Shown here: piece by piece, positions 6,359 through 32,200 of the stretch
Layout: every line of letters starts with the position of its first letter
How positions within the stretch are numbered: position 1 is the first letter of the stretch
NCBI RefSeq assembly: GCF_003071065.1
Contig: NZ_QCXX01000006.1
Coordinates: forward strand, 310,001 to 374,000
Reading direction: 5' to 3'
From: Sphingobacterium athyrii
GTDB taxonomy: Bacteria > Bacteroidota > Bacteroidia > Sphingobacteriales > Sphingobacteriaceae
DNA: 64,000 bases
The notes under the pieces: model-generated
The model's input: the letters and a program-made list of their open reading frames with translations, nothing else
Told to the model about the DNA's origin: nothing
Database searches by the model: none
Translations under genes and position numbers: made by a program

Positions 6359-6532
6359 AATTTGGTTTTAATTACTTTGATAGTAATATAACGATCAATA
6401 TTAAAGTTTCGCTACAAAAATAAAAGTAAATATCAATACATTGAAGATGCGATAGTTCTATTGGGGGCACCTCCTAAATAATTATACCCTGTTTCATCGT
6501 TCGATTTGTTTAATCTACAATGTAATTAGATA

Positions 6533-6563
6533 TTGTATATAAAAGCAAATTTATCTAAGTTTG
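6533..6563 (+). promoter_or_regulatory. Vegetative promoter of the first ECF sigma gene
   Basis: TTG (6533-6535), a 20-base spacer and TAAGTTTG (6556-6563) match the Bacteroidota -33/-7 promoter. It lies about 55 bases upstream of the sigma factor ATG at 6619. The rest of 6359-6618 is AT-rich with no further recognisable element. Confidence 0.6.
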
Positions 6564-6618
6564 AAAACCAAATGTTTGTGGGTATGTTATTTTCATCCAT
6601 TTTGGAACCTATGTAAAA

Positions 6619-7233
6619 ATGCGAATGTTAAGCAGAAATAGCCTTAGTTGTGATATGGAAGAACGGGAGCAATTAACGCTTTTGAAGAAAGGAGACTATC
6701 ATGCTTTCGATGCGCTCTATAAAATCTATAGCCCCAAGATATTGGGCAGACTGATTCGTTTATTGGGAAGTGAGCATGTTGCCGAAGAAATTTTACAGGA
6801 TCTCTTTTTCCGAATTTGGGAAAAAAGGGCGCAGATAGATATTGATAGACCTTTTAAAGGCTATCTGTTTGCCATTGCGCAGAACCTTGTGTATGATCAC
6901 TTTCGGAAATTGAGTATCAATGAGCGGTATAGAGATGAGTTTGTACAGGGCTATTCGGAATTGTACGGACATGTAGAGGAGGACATTATCTTCAAACAGA
7001 CCGAAGAACGCCTAATGCAAGCGATCAATAAGCTGCCTCAGCAGTGTAGGCAAGTATATGTACTGTTTAAATTGGAAGGTAAAAGCTACGCTGAAATAGC
7101 AGAGCTAATGGGTATTAGCAAATCAACGATCAATAACCACTTGACGAAAGCAAACGCTGTTTTAAAAAAAGAATTCCCCTTTTTGGGCCATTGGATCGCA
7201 ATTGCCTTTACCATATTATGGCGCAGTTACTGA
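6619..7233 (+). CDS. FecI-like ECF RNA polymerase sigma factor
   Basis: 204 residues from ATG 6619; an in-frame ATG at 6655 fits family N-termini better (MEEREQLTLL) and may be the true start. Region 2 is present (HAFDALYKIYSPKILGRLIR, then EILQDLFFRIWEKR), as is region 4 with its helix-turn-helix (SYAEIAELMGISKSTINNHL). The last residues are hydrophobic (HWIAIAFTILW), as in the Bacteroides-expansion ECF group. It should direct polymerase to the downstream susC/susD operon when released by the FecR protein encoded next. A vegetative promoter lies upstream and a stem-loop separates it from fecR. Confidence 0.92.
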   Translation: MRMLSRNSLSCDMEEREQLTLLKKGDYHAFDALYKIYSPKILGRLIRLLGSEHVAEEILQDLFFRIWEKRAQIDIDRPFKGYLFAIAQNLVYDHFRKLSINERYRDEFVQGYSELYGHVEEDIIFKQTEERLMQAINKLPQQCRQVYVLFKLEGKSYAEIAELMGISKSTINNHLTKANAVLKKEFPFLGHWIAIAFTILWRSY

Positions 7234-7292
7234 ATGTGGACTTTACTAGATTGAGGTCAATTCATTTTATATTAAAAAAAAGTTAACTTTCT

Positions 7293-7341
7293 ATTAGGTA
7301 CTTTTTAATAGCAGTCCGTATTAGCTATTAAAGGACCTAAT
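7293..7341 (+). promoter_or_regulatory. Stem-loop covering the ribosome-binding region of the first fecR
   Basis: ATTAGGT (7293-7299) pairs with ACCTAAT (7335-7341), CTTT (7301-7304) with AAAG (7330-7333), and AATAGC (7307-7312) with GCTATT (7324-7329), leaving an 11-base loop. The purine-rich AAAGGA before the TTG start at 7345 is inside the right arm, so folding would limit fecR translation. A related shorter stem lies before the second fecR at 28110-28137. Confidence 0.5.
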
Positions 7342-7344
7342 CAA

Positions 7345-8535
7345 TTGAAAGAAAAAACGAATCTAAAGGAATTATTCAACCAGTATCTTACAGGAAAAGC
7401 TTCTGAAGGCGAACTCTTGCATTTACTGGATTTTTTTAAGCTGGAAGAAGATTCTGCCTTATTGCGTGCATTGATTTTAGCGGAACTTGAGAAGGAGGAA
7501 ACGCTGGAAACAACTGAAGAGCAGCAGGCGATTCTAAATCGGGTATCTTCTGTATTGGCACATGGTATCAGAAATGAGAAGGTTCGTCTACGTAAATTAT
7601 ATATCCGCTGGTCTGCTGCAGCTGCTGTAGTTATAATCGCTGGCTTTTGGATTGGTCTGGAGCGAATTCAGGAAGGTGCCGGAATTTTTTCAAGCACTCG
7701 AAAAGAAATTATTGCACCGGGGCAAGACAAAGCGATTCTGGAACTGGAAGACGGCCGGATAATTAACTTGGATAGCAGTATTGGACCAGATGCAAAAAAC
7801 AGCTATGTTTTTGCCGATACCAGTGGAATGATGACATTTAGTTCCCAAGATTTACCTGCTACTGATACGAAATCTGCAGAACGTACCCTCAGGACCCCTA
7901 AAGGTGGACAGTTCGCTGTTTTACTTTCGGATGGAACCAAAGTTTGGCTTAATGCTGAATCTTCCATCAGCTTTCCTGCAATTTTTGCTCAGCGTACAAG
8001 GGATGTAAGCATTACAGGCGAAGTTTACTTTGAGGTAACCAAAAATCCAACAAAACCTTTCTTGGTCCATGCCAGACAGCAAACGGTCAAAGTGCTGGGC
8101 ACCCATTTTAACATCAATGCCTATCCGGAAAATGACGCTGTACAAACCAGCTTGCTCGAAGGTAGTGTTGCTGTAATTGCCGGAGGAAAACAAGTGCAGT
8201 TACTTCCGGGGCAAATGTCGGTATGGCAAGAAAACCAAGGTGGACTGCAGGTTGGTCGAATCCCGGACCCAGAGAACCTGCTGTCATGGAAAGAAGGCAT
8301 GTTTTGTTTTGATAACAATAATATCGCCGAAATTATGCAGGTTCTGGCGCGCTGGTATGATATCGAATTCTCTTTTGAAAAAGGGGATTATAGCAACTGT
8401 GTTTTTGACGCAATGATTCCAAAGAAGAAAAGCATACAGGAAGTCCTGAATATTTTGGGTGCCTCGCAGCAATTGGAATTTAAAATAAATGGAAGAAAAG
8501 TAATCGTTTCCCAAGCGAAGAGTAATAGAAACTAA
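7345..8535 (+). CDS. FecR-family anti-sigma factor
   Basis: 396 residues. The only credible start is TTG at 7345, because stops lie in frame at 7306 and 7309 and no ATG precedes the conserved LKELFNQYLTGKASEGEL. The cytoplasmic N-terminal part (about 1-85) should bind the sigma factor. A single membrane segment follows at about 89-108 (WSAAAAVVIIAGFWIGL). The periplasmic FecR domain contains TPKGGQFAVLLSDGTKVWLN and GEVYFEVTKN, and the C-terminal DUF4974 domain ends IQEVLNILG...GRKVIVS. The protein relays receptor occupancy to the sigma factor. It is unusual in having a TTG start behind a stem-loop, which suggests deliberately low translation. Confidence 0.93.
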   Translation: MKEKTNLKELFNQYLTGKASEGELLHLLDFFKLEEDSALLRALILAELEKEETLETTEEQQAILNRVSSVLAHGIRNEKVRLRKLYIRWSAAAAVVIIAGFWIGLERIQEGAGIFSSTRKEIIAPGQDKAILELEDGRIINLDSSIGPDAKNSYVFADTSGMMTFSSQDLPATDTKSAERTLRTPKGGQFAVLLSDGTKVWLNAESSISFPAIFAQRTRDVSITGEVYFEVTKNPTKPFLVHARQQTVKVLGTHFNINAYPENDAVQTSLLEGSVAVIAGGKQVQLLPGQMSVWQENQGGLQVGRIPDPENLLSWKEGMFCFDNNNIAEIMQVLARWYDIEFSFEKGDYSNCVFDAMIPKKKSIQEVLNILGASQQLEFKINGRKVIVSQAKSNRN

Positions 8536-8599
8536 CAACAATTATGTCAAATAACCTAAACAGAAAAAAATATGTAAAAGATTTATCTACAGAAAAGTA

Positions 8600-8677
8600 A
8601 AGAAAAGTCCCGACGGCAATCGGGACTAAAATTGGAGCTAGCCTCTACAGAATTTATAGTGTTCATTAACTAACTCT
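8600..8677 (-). ncRNA. Candidate cis-antisense small RNA opposite the susC leader (DonS-like)
   Basis: On the minus strand a TACTTTTG box (8689-8682) ends exactly opposite the A of the susC ATG. A second box, TAGATTTG, lies at 8699-8692 with TTG 23 bases further upstream (8725-8723). Some 55 bases downstream is a perfect 8-bp stem (8606-8613 with 8620-8627, loop TTGCCG read on this strand) followed by TTTCTTTACTTTTC. On the plus strand the same stem has no T run. The RNA would be roughly 78-90 nt and complementary to the susC 5' leader. Bacteroides encodes antisense RNAs in the same place in sigma/anti-sigma loci, where they repress the operon. The ends given are estimates. Confidence 0.55.
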
Positions 8678-8688
8678 TAACCAAAAGT

Positions 8689-11600
8689 ATGCAAATCTAT
8701 TCGGATAAAAAAGCGCCTTTTGCAAGGTGGCTTTGCCGTATTCATTTGTCCTCTCCGAGCGATATGTCGGATATCAATCGCCTGAGGACGCAAAAAGTCT
8801 GGAGAATTATGAAATTAACTGGAGTTTTGACCTTTGTTCCGCTGTTGCACCTAAGCGCTTCTGTTTATTCGCAGCAGGTGACACTTAAAGGACAGCGGGT
8901 GAAAATAAAGGATGCCCTGCGAACAGTAACCAAACAGACAGGATATGGCTTTCTCTACAACTCCAAAATGTTGGATGTAGAAAGTAGTATTTCTGTTGAT
9001 CTGAACAATGCTCCCCTGTCTAAGGCCATGGAGGAAATATTGGCAGCAAAAGGATTTAATTATAGAATTGAAGAAAATACAATTGTTCTGTTGCCAAAGC
9101 ATGAACGGAGCATTGATACCAAAGAAACGCCTATCCAAAGAGGTATTCGGGGAAAGGTTACAGACGATAAGGGAAAACCGCTGACGGGTGTTTCCATTGT
9201 ATTTAGTAAGGATCTCTCTTTTACTACTGATGCAAAAGGTGAGTTTAAGCTTCCTGTATCGGTAGACGGAAAGGAAGCTACGTTCAGTTTTGTCGGCTAT
9301 AAAAAACATGTCCAGGTGTTAACGGCTAAATCCGGAGCCTATGAGATCAAGTTGCAATCGTCGCATGAGCAATTGAGTGATGTTGTTGTAACGGGCTATT
9401 TTAGCCGGACGAAACAAAGTGTAACGGGGTCTCAGGTCGTTGTATCCGGCGAGGATCTGAGAAAAGTAGGGTCGCTGAACCTGATGCAGGCGCTCAATGC
9501 ATTTGATCCTTCAGTGCGCATGGCACCAAATCTGGAGTTTGGCTCAGATCCGAACCGTGTTCCTGAAATCACCATAAGGGGAGAAAATGGATTTGATTTA
9601 CGTTCCAGTGCGGATGATTCACGAAGCAATCCGAATGGCCCTTTATATTTGCTCGACGGTATCGAAGTGTCTGCAACGCGAATCTACGACCTGGACATGA
9701 ATCGTATTGAGTCCTTCGTGATTTTGCGGGATGCATCTGCTACTTCCTTATATGGGTCAAGAGGTGCCAATGGGGTTATTCTGATCACGACTATACCACC
9801 CAAGGAAGGCGCTGTACGGGTGTCTTTCAATACGACTGCTAATGTGTCTGTTCCCGATCTGCGGGACTACAATCTGATGAATGCCGGTGAGAAACTTGAA
9901 TATGAACGATTGGCCGGTTTGTATACCAGTAGGACCAATAGCCGTGAAGAACAGATTCTCCTAGATCTTAAATATAGTGATAGACTGGCGGAAGTTGAAA
10001 GGGGGGTGGACACCTATTGGTTATCTAAGCCTCTTACAACCAGTGTCAATCAACGCTACAATGCTTTTGTTGAAGGGGGGGACCGAAGTTTCCGTTATGG
10101 TGTCAATTTGAATTACGATAAAGATAAAGGGGTGATGAAGGAATCTGGCCGTGATCGTTATGGTATCAATGTCAGCTTCAATTACTACCCAAGAAAAGAT
10201 TTTTTAATCCGAAACGATGTTTCTGTCAATAATGTAAAAGGTTTCAATTCTCCTTATGGGACTTTTGATTCCTATGCCAAACAAAATCCTATTGACCGCA
10301 TTTACGACAGGCAGACGGGGGATGTCATTCGTTTTTATGAATTTAATAGCACCTTGAATCCCATGCTCGACGCTTTCTTGCCCAATAAAGATTTCAATCG
10401 CTACACGGAAATTCAGGACAATTTCAATATGGATTGGCGAATTAACCCTAATTTCCGGGTTACAGGACGGGCTTCTTTAAGCAAAAAATTGGCTAAGGCT
10501 GAAAAGTATATCTCGCCGTTCTCTTCCAAATTCGATCGGGAGACCGAATCGGATAAAAAGGGCAGTTATGAGATTTATGACCAGGATGATCTGAATTTTG
10601 ATGGTACTGTTACTGCTTCATATAATAAGATATTCAGGGATAAAATTACCACGAATATCGGTGTTGGCGCGAATGCGGTAACGACTTCTGCCGTTGGAGA
10701 GGGATACACAGCGACCGGATTTTTGAGCGATAATATGAACTTTATCCAATATGCACAGCAGTTTAAGGAAAATACTAGCCCTAAGGGTTATTTTGACAAG
10801 TCAAAGATGATCGGTTTTTTCCTTAATGCCAATGTAGGTTATGAAAATCGTTATTTTGTCGACCTTTCCTTTCGTACGGACGGTTCCAGCCGTTTTGGAC
10901 GGGAATCGCGTTTCGCACCTTTCTGGTCCGCCGGTGTTGCGTGGAATGCGGATCGTGAAAAGTGGTGGGATAGTGATGCGACCCTGAAGGTCCGGGCTTC
11001 AGTTGGTAGTACCGGATCTGTTAATTTTTCGGCAGATCAGGCATTGACCAAGTATGGCTATGATCCGCTATATGAATACAATGGATATTATGGTGCTCGA
11101 TTACTAGGGTACGGTAACCCTGCATTGAAATGGCAAAATACACTGCAAAATAATATCGGTGCAGATTTGACAATGTTCAAAAACCTGCTCGTTTTAAATA
11201 TTGATGCCTATATCAAACAGACCCAAAATTTGTTGTTGCCAATTGATATTGCACCCTCGACCGGATTTTTGAGTTATACCGAAAACCTAGGTTCTATGGA
11301 AAATAGGGGGATGGATATGCGTTTACGCTTTAACGTCCTTCGTGGAAAAAATCCAGTCAATTGGAATTTTACATTGGGGGCAGCGACAAACAAAAACAAA
11401 ATCAAGCACCTCTCTAATGCTTTAGAGGCAATGAATGAGGAGGCTGGTAAGAAAGATAATGTTACCGGACCTAAGCCATTGCGTACTTACCAAGCTGGGC
11501 GATCGCAGAGCGCATTGATGGTAGTCGAATCGCTGGGCATTGACCCAATGACCGGTAATGAAATCTACCGGAAATTAAACGGTGACCTGACTTTCGATTA

Positions 11601-12087
11601 TGATCCGAAAGATAAAATTATTGTAGGGGATATGAACCCTACATGGATGGGAACCTTTCAGTCCAATCTACTGTATAAAGGATTCAATTTATATTTCATC
11701 TTGGCCTATGAATATGGTGGAAAGATTTATAATTCAACATTGGCGCAAAAGGTTGAAGGGTCCAATCCTCTTTTTAACGCAGACCGACGTGTACTTTACG
11801 AGCGCTGGAAAAACCCCGGTGACATTGCTCTGTATAAACGTATCGATGATACAGAACCGCCTTACCAAACGACAAGGTTGGTGCAAAGGAATGATTTCCT
11901 AAGATTACAAACCCTAACGTTGACTTATGATCTACCTGCCAATGTATTGACGAATCTAAAGCTGGAACGTGCCCGCATTATGCTGACTAGTAACGATCTG
12001 TTTCGTTTTTCCACAGTAAAAATGGAACGAGGAACAATCTATCCCTATGCGCAGACCTTTTCGCTGGCACTTAATCTGACATTCTAA
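8689..12087 (+). CDS. SusC-family TonB-dependent receptor with STN signalling domain
   Basis: 1132 residues. The N-terminus is long, with the hydrophobic signal core at about residues 43-58 and cleavage near VYSQ, as is usual for receptors downstream of FecR. An STN domain (about 63-135: VKIKDALRTVTKQTGYGFLY) contacts FecR and transmits ligand binding. A carboxypeptidase-D-like domain follows (about 150-230: GIRGKVTDDKGKPLTGVSI), then the plug (VVVTGYFSRTKQSV; TSLYGSRGANGVILITT) and the beta barrel, ending LALNLTF. It starts 62 bases after the stem-loop of the predicted antisense RNA. The operon continues with susD, DUF4843, PKD-like, esterase and thioredoxin genes. The substrate is unknown. 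Confidence 0.95.
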   Translation: MQIYSDKKAPFARWLCRIHLSSPSDMSDINRLRTQKVWRIMKLTGVLTFVPLLHLSASVYSQQVTLKGQRVKIKDALRTVTKQTGYGFLYNSKMLDVESSISVDLNNAPLSKAMEEILAAKGFNYRIEENTIVLLPKHERSIDTKETPIQRGIRGKVTDDKGKPLTGVSIVFSKDLSFTTDAKGEFKLPVSVDGKEATFSFVGYKKHVQVLTAKSGAYEIKLQSSHEQLSDVVVTGYFSRTKQSVTGSQVVVSGEDLRKVGSLNLMQALNAFDPSVRMAPNLEFGSDPNRVPEITIRGENGFDLRSSADDSRSNPNGPLYLLDGIEVSATRIYDLDMNRIESFVILRDASATSLYGSRGANGVILITTIPPKEGAVRVSFNTTANVSVPDLRDYNLMNAGEKLEYERLAGLYTSRTNSREEQILLDLKYSDRLAEVERGVDTYWLSKPLTTSVNQRYNAFVEGGDRSFRYGVNLNYDKDKGVMKESGRDRYGINVSFNYYPRKDFLIRNDVSVNNVKGFNSPYGTFDSYAKQNPIDRIYDRQTGDVIRFYEFNSTLNPMLDAFLPNKDFNRYTEIQDNFNMDWRINPNFRVTGRASLSKKLAKAEKYISPFSSKFDRETESDKKGSYEIYDQDDLNFDGTVTASYNKIFRDKITTNIGVGANAVTTSAVGEGYTATGFLSDNMNFIQYAQQFKENTSPKGYFDKSKMIGFFLNANVGYENRYFVDLSFRTDGSSRFGRESRFAPFWSAGVAWNADREKWWDSDATLKVRASVGSTGSVNFSADQALTKYGYDPLYEYNGYYGARLLGYGNPALKWQNTLQNNIGADLTMFKNLLVLNIDAYIKQTQNLLLPIDIAPSTGFLSYTENLGSMENRGMDMRLRFNVLRGKNPVNWNFTLGAATNKNKIKHLSNALEAMNEEAGKKDNVTGPKPLRTYQAGRSQSALMVVESLGIDPMTGNEIYRKLNGDLTFDYDPKDKIIVGDMNPTWMGTFQSNLLYKGFNLYFILAYEYGGKIYNSTLAQKVEGSNPLFNADRRVLYERWKNPGDIALYKRIDDTEPPYQTTRLVQRNDFLRLQTLTLTYDLPANVLTNLKLERARIMLTSNDLFRFSTVKMERGTIYPYAQTFSLALNLTF

Positions 12088-12097
12088 AGAAATAGAT

Positions 12098-13495
12098 ATG
12101 AATAAACAATTTATTCTGATGAAACTAAAACTTGTATTACTCCTGGGCTCTTTATTCTTTTTGTCAGCCTGTAATAAATGGCTGGATGTAGAATTGGCCG
12201 ATAAAGTGACGCAGGAGAAACTTTTCAGTACACCACAGGGCTACCAGGAAGCCTTGGCAGGTGTATATAGCCAAATGGCCGATTCCAGCCTCTATGGAAA
12301 AAAGCTAAGCATGGAGGTGATGGATTTAATGGGAGACTATTATGGTACCAATAATGTTGCCGCTAGATATGCTAAACTTCGGGCCTATGATTATAAAGAT
12401 GCAGGCTCACAGGTAATTATTGCAAAAATCTGGAACCAATTGTACAGCGCCATCGGCGGAGCCAATAATATTATTGCATGGGCCGATAAAGATGTAAGCG
12501 TATTAAGTCCTGATATGAAAAATCAGATATTGGGTGAAGCGTACGCGCTCAGAGCCTACCTTCACTGTGATCTGATACGTATGTTCTGTCCAGATGTCGT
12601 CGCTTCACCAAAAGCATCAGGAATTCCATATAATTTGGTGTTTGGAGTTTCATTGCCACCGGTTTATACGGTGGAGGAAAATGTACAATTGGTCATTGAC
12701 GATCTTAAAACCGCGGAAAAATACCTGGCAAACGATCCGATCACACAAGTAAAGCCTTATGAAATGATCAATAAAAACGAGGCCGACAAATATGTCGCCC
12801 GCTTTAATCTATATGGAGTCAAAGCATTGTTGGCCCGTGTAAGTCTAATGCGTGGGGATAAAAATAATGCGATCAGATATGCGAAGGAGGTCGTAGAATC
12901 CCAAAGATTTAGACTTTTGGATTTTGCCAGTGTGGACAAATCGGAAAAGGAAATTGATATGCTGTTCTCAGATGAGCATATTTTTTCATTGCGAAACAAA
13001 AAGCTTTCCGATTTTACGACCGAAATTCACTATTCCCATACCGATGACAAAGGCACCACAACCCTAGCTTTCTTGCCTTTCGCAAATGTAGCGCAACTGT
13101 ATGAGGCAAATAATGATGATATCCGTTATATCAAATGGTTCTCGACCACAGACGGTTCCTTTATCAAATATAAGGTGGATAATAAAGATAAGTTCTTCCC
13201 CAAAATGCCCATGATCAAACTTTCTGAGATGTATTTAATACTGGCCGAATGTTACCTCGGAAAAGATGATCAACAGGCCCAATCATATATCAATCAATTA
13301 CGCGATCATCGTATCCGGAACAATGCGCACTGGTCATATCTGACTAAGGAATATATTATGCGGGAGTCGCAACGGGAATTCTTGGGTGAAGGTCAGCTAT
13401 GGTACGCCGTGAAAAGATGGAGTCAGGGCACGCCGAATATTCTATTCGTATTCCCTATACCATTAAAAGAAATTGAAACAGGAAACCGAAATTAA
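12098..13495 (+). CDS. SusD/RagB family lipoprotein
   Basis: 465 residues, 10 bases after the receptor gene. ATG 12098 is used; an internal ATG at 12119 would also leave a complete signal peptide. The lipobox is LSAC, with mature sequence CNKWLDVELADKVTQEKLF, a classic SusD start. The TPR-like scaffold is visible in GYQEALAGVYSQM, LGEAYALRAYLHCDLIRMF and MPMIKLSEMYLILAECY. The C-terminal half is short, ending PIPLKEIETGNRN. It should cap the SusC-type pore encoded upstream and capture the ligand at the cell surface. Its smaller size than the other two SusD proteins here suggests a shorter or simpler ligand, which is only a guess. Confidence 0.94.
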   Translation: MNKQFILMKLKLVLLLGSLFFLSACNKWLDVELADKVTQEKLFSTPQGYQEALAGVYSQMADSSLYGKKLSMEVMDLMGDYYGTNNVAARYAKLRAYDYKDAGSQVIIAKIWNQLYSAIGGANNIIAWADKDVSVLSPDMKNQILGEAYALRAYLHCDLIRMFCPDVVASPKASGIPYNLVFGVSLPPVYTVEENVQLVIDDLKTAEKYLANDPITQVKPYEMINKNEADKYVARFNLYGVKALLARVSLMRGDKNNAIRYAKEVVESQRFRLLDFASVDKSEKEIDMLFSDEHIFSLRNKKLSDFTTEIHYSHTDDKGTTTLAFLPFANVAQLYEANNDDIRYIKWFSTTDGSFIKYKVDNKDKFFPKMPMIKLSEMYLILAECYLGKDDQQAQSYINQLRDHRIRNNAHWSYLTKEYIMRESQREFLGEGQLWYAVKRWSQGTPNILFVFPIPLKEIETGNRN

Positions 13496-29132: not shown

Positions 29133-29231
29133 AAAAAAAGAGCTGACGACGGCCATCGTCAACTCTGAATCATACACCATTTGGAGATGGTATAATAACA
29201 TATACAACAACTTATAGAGATATTATATACG
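29133..29231 (-). ncRNA. Candidate cis-antisense small RNA opposite the TonB-receptor leader (DonS-like)
   Basis: On the minus strand TTTG (29270-29267), a 23-base spacer and TAAATTTG (29243-29236) form a promoter whose -7 box ends exactly at the receptor ATG. About 70 bases downstream a stem (29139-29149 with 29156-29166, one mismatch, loop TGGCCG on this strand) is followed by seven T. The predicted RNA is about 99 nt and complementary to the receptor leader. The layout, the closing pairs CGA/TCG, the GCCG loop and an upstream CTCCAA match the candidate at 8600-8677. The ends are estimates. Confidence 0.6.
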
Positions 29232-29242
29232 CATACAAATTT

Positions 29243-32200
29243 ATGAAATTTAAGCAATACGTTACGCAAAACGATATTAAGTTTATGATAAGGACATCGT
29301 TGGTAGGTTTACTTCTTTCGATCGTGTCGGCCGAAATGCTTTTTGCTTCGGGCGCATACGGCCAGTTACTCAATAAAAAGATCGCAATTTCTTTTAATGA
29401 ATCCACTATTCCGGCAGCTTTCGAGCGTTTGGAATCCAAAAATATACCTATCGCTTTCGATGCAGCGAAATATAATCTGGCAAAGAAAAAGGTCAATGCC
29501 AAAATTTTCAAAAGCAACAGTGTCCGGGATATCATGCATTATCTGCTCAAGGAAACGAACTTGATGGCGCATGACAACGGGGTCTATATTACATTGGTCG
29601 AAAAGCCGGTACAGCAGGATGGGCGTATCGCAGGTAAAGTGATTGATGATCGCGGTCAGCCTTTGGCCAATGCCAGCATCAAACTGATTGGTGCCAATAA
29701 ATCCACACAGAGCGGTATCGACGGTAGCTATGTGCTGAATGCCGAACCGGGAACCTACATACTGGAAGTCAGTTATCTCTCTTACCAGACCCAACGTATT
29801 GAGGGGGTCAAAATACAGGCTGGACAGCGGACAGGACTAAATATTGCCATGAAGACGCAGGTGAATGCGTTGGAAACGGCAGTTGTCAGTGTATCGTTTA
29901 AAAAAGCTTCTGTAGCGGGACTTTATGCAGCACAAAAGAACGCAGCGTCGGTGACCGATGGTATTTCGGCTGAACAGATCGCCCGCACACCAGACAATGA
30001 TATGGGACAGGTTTTGAAACGTGTTACCGGAGTGACGACGGTCAACAACCGGAACGTCATCGTACGGGGGATGTCGGACCGCTACAATCAGGCCATGCTG
30101 GACGGAGTCGTGATTCCAAGCACTTCACAGAATAGACGGGATTTTTCTTTTGATATTATCCCAACAGAAATGGTGAGCTCGGTAGTTGTTAATAAAACAG
30201 CAACACCAGATGTGTCCGCTGAATTTTCGGGCGGGCAGGTTTCGGTGAATACATTAGATATTCCGGAGAAGGATTTTACGACAATACAATATGGGATAGG
30301 CGGAAATTCCCGCACAACAGGCAAAGATTTTTACAGGCTGGGGGAGCGGCATACGAGCGAATATTTCGGTTTTTTTGACAAATCTTCTAAAATGCCTGAT
30401 GGAATAAAGACTTGGCAGTGGAATAGTCGGGCGATACAATTGGACGCGCCTCCCGGTTATATTTTGACTGACCCTGAATTGAACAATACCCCTTTAAATC
30501 CAACTGAGTTTGGCGATGTCGTGAAGTATAACGATTTGGATGCTATAGCACAGTCCAAGCGCTTTAATAATGACGCACTGCGACAATATAAATATAAAGC
30601 ATACCCTAATCAGAACATGCGTTTTTCGCTAGGACGGGTTTATCAACTAAATAACGGACAGCGATTGGGGTTTGTAGCATCCGCAAATTTTAGAAACGAA
30701 CAAAACACTATTGCATTTAATAATGCACGTAATTCAACTCAGGCTAATTATATAGATAGTTTGGGAGTAGGTGATAATGGAGCTGGCATATCTTATCGCT
30801 TCAATAGTAATGGCGGGTTGATGGCCAATGTTGGATGGCAAGGCCAAGGCTTTAAGGTTTCCTTAAAGAATACATATGCGCGTACTTATAGTGATGTTTA
30901 TAATGAGTCTATTCAAAAACCTTATAACGATGCTATTCCGGTAGCTTATAAAATGATTTATCAATTGCCGGAAGCAATGTCTTTGCAGCAACATCAGTTG
31001 ACAGGAGAGTATCAGTTACCATGGGAAATAAAAGCTGAAGGAATGTTTACTGTTAACAAAATCAAACAACAGATTTTAGATGAACGAAAACTTTCTTATA
31101 GGATAACTACTACGATAGATAATATACCTTATTTTCAAACCCCCAGCCTAATGACCAACAGCAGCTCATCGGTGGCGGGGGTTTTCAAAGACTCCAGAAG
31201 ATGGACGCATATTGATGAGACGGATTATAATTGGAGTACGGCATTTTCTCGAAAATTTGGTGTGAATTCAGCAGTGCCAACCTTGGTGAAATTAGGCTAT
31301 CAGGCTTGGTCAAAGAAGAGAACGCTAGATTTATTCAATTTCGTTCCCTGGACAAGATCTTGGGCGGAGGGCACTACGAATCAACCGCCTCCCGCAATAG
31401 AAATACCATACCATGAATTGTTCAACGCTGATAATATAGGTAATGGAAACGGTCAGGCCTATTATTACGCAGACGCATTGGGTGGGCGATATTATGATGG
31501 TGAAATGTCTTCACAGGCGGTGTATCTGATGGCGGATCAAATGCTATGGCATAAATTACGTTTGGTATATGGTGTTCGTGCAGAGTTTTTTAATTTAAAC
31601 TCTAAGCAAGAGGAATTATATAGGAGAACTTATCAGGATGAACCAGATCCCAATGACGTGCAACGGCACCGTTTCGGTGTGAAAGAAAATAATTGGCGTT
31701 TTCTACCTTCCCTTAATGCTACTTATAGGGTAACAAACGATTTTAATATCCGAAGCAGTTACGCAAGGACGGTAATTCGGCCAGATTTTAGAGAAGTTGG
31801 TATGTTTGCCATGTATGATTATGAGTTAGACGGTTACGTTTATGGAGAGCAAGTTAAATCCACGTTGATCGATAATGTAGATCTTCGATTTGAATGGTAT
31901 CCCTCACCAGGTGAAATAATTTCGATAACAGGATACTATAAATACTTGGATAAACCCATAGAACTTGTTCATAGTGGGGGGAACACGTATACTTTTGCCA
32001 ACATGGAAAATGCGAAAAATCTTGGACTCGAAATGGAGATTAGGAAAAATTTGACATTTCTATCGGATAAGGACTGGTTAAAAGACCTATTTATATATGC
32101 TAACGGAACACTGCTCAAATCGAAGGTCAATGTCTTAAGTCATTGGGAATGGATCAATAACCCTGAAACCCAAGTTGCTGAGCGCGTTCAACAGCGCTAT

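Follow-up and report, generated by a model that had tools for sequence, protein, structure and literature searches.

The fecR-susC locus

The window (the whole stretch of DNA analysed, 64 kb) contains genes for an ECF sigma factor and a FecR anti-sigma protein followed by genes for a SusC-type receptor and a SusD-type lipoprotein, with a gap of 153 nt between fecR and susC. The features of this locus, and those of the corresponding gap at a second locus in the window, are as follows.

6619-7233, plus strand: ECF sigma factor gene (Pfam Sigma70_r2, Sigma70_r4_2)
7345-8535, plus strand: FecR anti-sigma gene (Pfam FecR, FecR_C)
8544-8600, plus strand: micro-ORF of 18 codons, putatively coding, between fecR and the hairpin
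8592-8605, minus strand: T-rich tract 3' of the hairpin
8597-8677, minus strand: predicted antisense RNA, about 81 nt (start placed by a G peak, end by the T tract)
8606-8627, minus strand: terminator hairpin of 8 bp with loop TTGCCG
8682-8689, minus strand: -7 promoter box TACTTTTG, sharing the A of the susC ATG
8689-12087, plus strand: SusC-type receptor gene with STN domain, the presumed target (Pfam STN, CarbopepD_reg_2, Plug)
8692-8699, minus strand: second, upstream box TAGATTTG, alternative or spare
8723-8725, minus strand: TTG (CAA on the plus strand), proposed earlier as a -33 element
12098-13495, plus strand: SusD-type lipoprotein gene (Pfam SusD-like_3, SusD_RagB)
3' of the SusD gene: genes for a DUF4843 protein and a PKD-like protein
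29139-29166, minus strand: terminator hairpin of the second locus, then a T run
29236-29243, minus strand: box TAAATTTG of the second locus, at the receptor ATG (29243)

A sequence-only reading of this DNA had described a minus-strand promoter box at the susC start codon with a terminator beyond it, and we recovered both. The first T of TACTTTTG lies opposite the A (8689) of the ATG, the plus strand at 8682-8689 being CAAAAGTA. The stem is perfect over 8 bp (AGTCCCGA, 8606-8613, with TCGGGACT, 8620-8627), its loop on the minus strand is TTGCCG, and the T-rich tract that follows on that strand is TTTTCTTTACTTTT; no T run follows the stem on the plus strand. Two further elements of that reading are present but fared less well. 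The second box (CAAATCTA on the plus strand) is not the one whose register is conserved, which is the box at the ATG, and the TTG 23 nt before the second box lies off the weak excess of TTG seen 18-20 nt upstream of the box in related loci.

Both the stem and the loop of the window hairpin are identical in the closest relative (L083). The predicted 81-nt RNA folds into two hairpins at -23.5 kcal/mol (z -3.42). The plus strand of the same stretch also folds, hairpin included, with a z of -1.98.

Frequency of the box and the terminator

Hairpins with a stem of at least 8 bp and at least five G-C pairs were treated as terminator-like. Counting both strands, we found 78 boxes of the form TAnnTTTG and 8 terminator-like hairpins in the window. 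Only two of these boxes precede a terminator by 30-90 nt, one in each fecR-susC gap of the window and both on the minus strand (hairpins at 8627 and 29166). The corresponding count for both strands of 400 kb from this genome is 515 boxes and two box-terminator pairs. A looser terminator scan of 6400-9200 gave 3 hits where 2.5 were expected, which taken by itself is unremarkable. The two pairs from the 400 kb (L043, 10495-10408, minus strand; L047, 17181-17280, plus strand) are candidates for further small RNAs.

Survey of the genome

FecR matches number 41 in the genome that contains the window (6.85 Mb, 17 contigs), and 40 of them are followed by a large ORF; the one without (L041) was left out. 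We called a gap of at least 85 nt long, which gave 24 long and 16 short fecR gaps. The box is locked on the receptor ATG in 15 of the 24 long gaps, as CAAAnnTATG in 11 and as CAAATGTA in 4. A minus-strand terminator is present in 19 of them and a plus-strand terminator in 2, and box and minus-strand terminator occur together in 14. The 16 short gaps have no boxes and one terminator.

Such signals are scarce at other genes. Among 89 control genes with a gap of at least 85 nt behind a gene on the same strand, none has the box, two have a terminator and none has both; for all 265 control genes the counts are one box (CAAAnnTATG), three terminators and again none with both. The 20 susC genes that do not adjoin a listed FecR gene have one box and no terminator. 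Not every long gap carries the signals: under the rule used the terminator is missing in 5 of 24, and under a relaxed rule a box near the ATG is missing in 7 of 24. Depending on whether both parts or the terminator is asked for, the genome would hold 14 to 19 candidate antisense RNAs. The window locus is one of two predicted antisense RNA genes in the window and is kept by selection.

Distribution among relatives

For the relatives we relaxed the box rule to positions -15 to +25 of the ATG. Given in the order box, terminator, both, the counts under this rule are 17, 19 and 16 of 24 long gaps in the same genome; 12, 12 and 10 of 17 in the genus; 24, 27 and 20 of 32 in the family; 8, 15 and 8 of 29 in the class set; and 41, 44 and 31 of 62 in a set of named genomes. 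Summed over the five sets, 102 of 164 long gaps have the box, 117 the terminator and 85 both. The stem and box are thus conserved in related fecR-susC gaps at the level of genome, genus, family and class, a check that the sequence-only reading had named. Short gaps in all sets (n=68) have three boxes, three terminators and no case of both, a zero that is partly built in, because short gaps leave little room for a terminator; the fairer comparison is of the box alone, with 102 of 164 long gaps against 3 of 68 short ones.

Several limits of sampling apply to these sets. Left out were 4 of 23 loci of the genus set (L090, L092, L093 and L099, of which L093 has a hairpin), 3 of 50 of the family set (L115, L137 and L116, the last a duplicate of L001) and 2 of 49 of the class set (L145, L203). 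The class set also takes in three loci of the same family or genus (L146, L149, L152), and its following ORFs include some that do not encode receptors. The named set was drawn as the best 80 of at least 594 candidates, with L270 (gap of 932) left out, and is partly dependent on the other sets: the hairpin of L231 is that of L133, and the loop of L278 is that of L015.

Named loci with both parts come from Bacteroides propionicigenes, Parabacteroides faecis, P. goldsteinii, Tannerella, Marinifilum, Carboxylicivirga and Prolixibacteraceae, and from Pedobacter, Mucilaginibacter, Sphingobacterium, Chitinophaga pinensis, Ferruginibacter and Dyadobacter beijingensis. A near box accompanies the terminator in two Flavobacterium loci (L255, L280) and two Prevotella loci (L223, L233). 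Neither part was found in the short gaps of five further Flavobacterium loci (L247, L256, L267, L273, L279) and of Bacteroides fluxus (L219). Another 25 loci came from searching 198 genomes of the phylum. Seven were within the class, two of these with long gaps and one with both parts. Outside the class were 16 loci with a following ORF, some of these ORFs doubtful, and their 8 long gaps contained no box and no terminator. Because these eight gaps have neither part, the arrangement seems restricted to the class, taken here to be Bacteroidia in the GTDB scheme, although the sample outside it is small.

The probable transcribed strand

The hairpin search treated G-U and A-C pairs alike, and so favoured neither strand. 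A hairpin was found in 110 long gaps. Where its stem departs from Watson-Crick pairing, the pair reads as G-U on the minus strand in 99 cases and on the plus strand in 14 (binomial p 6e-17). Of these hairpins, 96 are followed by a T tract on the minus strand and 4 on the plus strand. These biases are direct evidence of selection acting on the antisense RNA, and they mark the minus strand as the one probably transcribed.

Changes within the stems were followed in whole-gap alignments of 18 groups (29 comparisons), which were chosen by eye from the likeness of the receptor N-termini and may include some loci that are not strict orthologues. Pairing survives in 69 of 112 changed stem pairs, including 25 in which both sides have changed. 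In slid controls, with the partners moved by 1-3 columns, 300 of 747 pair, 51 of them changed on both sides. The 69 of 112 include one poorly aligned group (L135, L181, L228) with 14 of its 20 ungapped pairs broken; without it, 63 of 92 changed pairs still pair, against 253 of 642 in the controls. One pair is changed from A-T to G-C between L207 and L255, with the rest of the stem unchanged. The stems of different loci have no common sequence.

The promoter box and the predicted start of the RNA

In the 85 loci that combine box and terminator, the start of the box falls at -7 relative to the A of the ATG in 54, at -3 in 21, at -8 in 7 and elsewhere in 3, and its letters are kept while the register shifts. 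The conserved element is the -7 box of what would be the RNA's own promoter, of Bacteroidota type. A G peak of 48% occurs 5 nt after TTTG in these loci, and this G is likely to be the transcription start site. From the G peak and the T tract, the window RNA would start near 8677 and be about 81 nt long. TTG occurs 18-20 nt upstream of the box 17 times in the 85 loci; given this weak excess, the -33 TTG was set aside as support.

In many receptors behind long gaps the signal peptide is preceded by 10-45 residues (often beginning MYKN or MKKN), as in the window at 8689-8808. These residues are encoded by the DNA of the antisense promoter, and the true start codon may lie further in. The true start of susC could be an internal Met at the signal peptide, in which case the box would fall in the leader.

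The hairpin loop

Once trimmed to a closing Watson-Crick pair, the 69 hairpin loops include 39 of 6 nt and 19 of 7 nt. The form C N2-4 AA, or its reverse complement, is found in 28 of the 69 loops and in 2 of 107 control hairpins; 2000 shuffles gave a mean of 1.9 and a maximum of 7. The set of 69 omits the class loci without a box, except for three, and when all 73 loops are taken 29 fit. In the named set, examined after the rule had been made, 20 of 45 loops fit, with a mean of 1.09 and a maximum of 6 in 3000 shuffles. The window loop, TTGCCG (complement CGGCAA), is among those that obey the rule, and more than half of all loops do not fit it exactly.

The two orientations of the loop are about equally common, with 9 and 11 in the named set. 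In the related loci L124 (CAGCAA) and L134 (TTGCTG) the loops are reverse complements of each other, as if inverted between the arms of the stem. Termination does not call for a fixed loop, and a protein-binding site would fix one strand. A loop pair that is workable either way round suggests loop-loop recognition between antisense and sense RNA, and the recurring loop (C..CAA or its complement) points the same way.

A larger picture can be drawn only tentatively, and we hold it to be somewhat less probable than not. The class may have an old antisense system, in which a -7 box lies inside the receptor start codon and every RNA contacts its own leader through complementary kissing loops of 6-7 nt that share one grammar (approximately C-K-S-C-A-A against U-U-G-S-M-G; the consensus letters are inflated, as 63 hexaloops were turned to the better-fitting strand, and the shuffle counts are independent of this orienting). 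Since the loop and its reverse complement can replace each other between relatives (L124 and L134), what is conserved would be the sense-antisense loop pair and not one strand.

Two other ideas about the loops were rejected. Loop diversity within the genome was considered as a sign of private pairing, and 17 of 17 short loops are distinct, but 17 loops drawn at random from other genomes would all differ with a probability of 0.39, so the diversity is uninformative. U-turn loops follow the motif YUNR, and many of the loops do not fit it.

Relation to known antisense RNAs

DonS is described as the representative of a family of antisense RNAs of 78-128 nt, divergent to susC homologues and lowering their expression (PMC7366714). 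In Bacteroides thetaiotaomicron, 32 antisense RNAs associated with polysaccharide utilization loci (PULs) are reported, with both negative and positive correlations to the PULs (PMC10994844); the positive ones count against a reading as repressors. For B. fragilis, such RNAs are reported for 15 PULs (PMC9723704), and the mechanism of DonS is called unknown in a 2025 paper (PMC11697453). We found no description of DonS-type RNAs outside Bacteroides in the open-licence literature, and Rfam at gathering scores gave no match for the window or for 16 loci.

The predicted window RNA resembles the DonS family in being divergently encoded opposite the start region of a susC homologue, in lying at a locus with ECF sigma and anti-sigma genes, as the earlier reading had described, and in its predicted length of 81 nt (ends inferred), which is within the 78-128 nt range (PMC7366714). 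Named loci of Bacteroides and Parabacteroides (L240, L216, L252) have the same box and hairpin as the window. It differs in that it comes from another family of the class and is predicted from sequence, DonS itself having been compared by description only. The window RNA may work like DonS, as far as its sequence goes. The earlier proposal that Sphingobacteriaceae use the same control as Bacteroides is upheld in the conserved box and terminator, the strand, the place and the predicted length, and is weak in its -33 part.

A second comparison is with ColE1 RNA I and RNA II, a plasmid kissing-loop system in which a short cis-antisense RNA has a loop complementary to that of its target. Here too a stem is closed by a loop of 6-7 nt, and the loop sequences are non-random. 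The present RNAs differ in being chromosomal, receptor-linked and in many copies per genome, in that loop contact is putative, and in that the sense hairpin has A-C mismatches opposite the antisense G-U pairs.

DonS-type RNAs have so far been in print for a few Bacteroides species. The present survey adds breadth across the class, a promoter box overlapping the receptor start codon and a recurring loop. New cases can be sought from sequence alone by means of the register of the box, the loop rule and the strand bias of G-U pairs. If the prediction is true, any genome of this class with numerous fecR-susC loci holds a large number of these RNAs (14 to 19 candidates in the present one), and the choice of receptor is set by an RNA layer besides the sigma factors.

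Proposed mechanism and alternatives

Box, terminator, strand and upkeep by selection are all shown by the comparison of loci. We consider it probable, with some confidence, that the fecR-susC gap is a small cis-antisense RNA gene whose RNA is made, pairs with the susC leader and represses the receptor; that the RNA is produced, that it pairs with susC mRNA and that repression follows is what we infer from these features. A housekeeping-type -7 box (TAnnTTTG), overlapping the susC start codon, would fire away from susC, and the resulting RNA of about 80-120 nt (about 81 nt in the window) would stop at the strong terminator hairpin. The part of the susC leader complementary to this RNA would run from about 12 to about 92 nt upstream of the ATG. 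Because the promoter is of the housekeeping type, the RNA should be made while the ECF sigma factor is idle. As long as FecR keeps the sigma factor in that state, the antisense RNA would pair with stray susC leader RNA and mask the ribosome-loading stretch in front of the ATG, and so keep the receptor off. Strong sigma-driven transcription would then override the antisense RNA, which would act as a threshold. Ribosome loading in the Bacteroidota depends on an open A-rich leader and not on a Shine-Dalgarno site. The region complementary to the RNA takes in a conserved stretch near the ATG, for example TTTAACCCAAAC in 3 of 4 aligned Mucilaginibacter-type loci, and pairing at this place would hinder ribosome loading.

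The same DNA could instead serve the plus strand, the hairpin being the end or an attenuator of the sigma-fecR mRNA, or a structure of the susC leader, and the box an A-rich start context. The hairpin does fold on the plus strand too, plus-strand signals resembling terminators occur in 2 of 24 gaps of the same genome and in L208 and L209, and Bacteroidota leaders are A-rich. Yet the G-U pairs (99 to 14) and the T tracts (96 to 4) favour the minus strand, the box stays whole though its register moves between -8, -7 and -3, and CAAAnnTATG occurs in 1 of 265 control genes; we consider this explanation quite unlikely. Transcription interference, in which a polymerase from the antisense promoter collides with or displaces the sense polymerase and the RNA is a by-product, is unlikely as well. 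It would suit a box that sits on the start codon and fires toward where the sense promoter must lie, but the transcript is short and has a dedicated terminator, and a by-product needs no fixed loop, yet 29 of 73 and 20 of 45 loops fit the rule. That a common AT-rich box merely happens to lie near an unrelated hairpin is scarcely credible: single boxes are frequent enough (78 in the window and 515 in the 400 kb, both strands), yet the box-terminator pair, found twice in 400 kb, is present in 85 of 164 long fecR gaps.

Other features of the gaps

The micro-ORF of the window (8544-8600), between the fecR stop codon and the hairpin, reads MSNNLNRKKYVKDLSTEK. Micro-ORFs in the gaps often encode short basic peptides, such as MKRIKGKAS, MKRKLPAAA and MMKKHRQNE. 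Of 91 gaps, 70 have one on the plus strand; 300 single-letter shuffles gave a mean of 43 and a maximum of 57.

Shine-Dalgarno sites are rare in this group. A Shine-Dalgarno-like AGGAGG, or a sequence like AAGGAGG, lies directly 3' of fecR in L008, L017, L021, L022 and L028, and also in the relatives L089, L091, L092, L097 and L098. Several of these sites precede a tiny ORF (for example ATG-TAA), and some of the gaps concerned are without the antisense box and hairpin.

In two loci of the survey (L004, L026) an extra inverted repeat, centred on GACGAC, lies past the hairpin and just upstream of the receptor ATG. The repeat of L004 is conserved in L104 and L105, and is possibly an operator.
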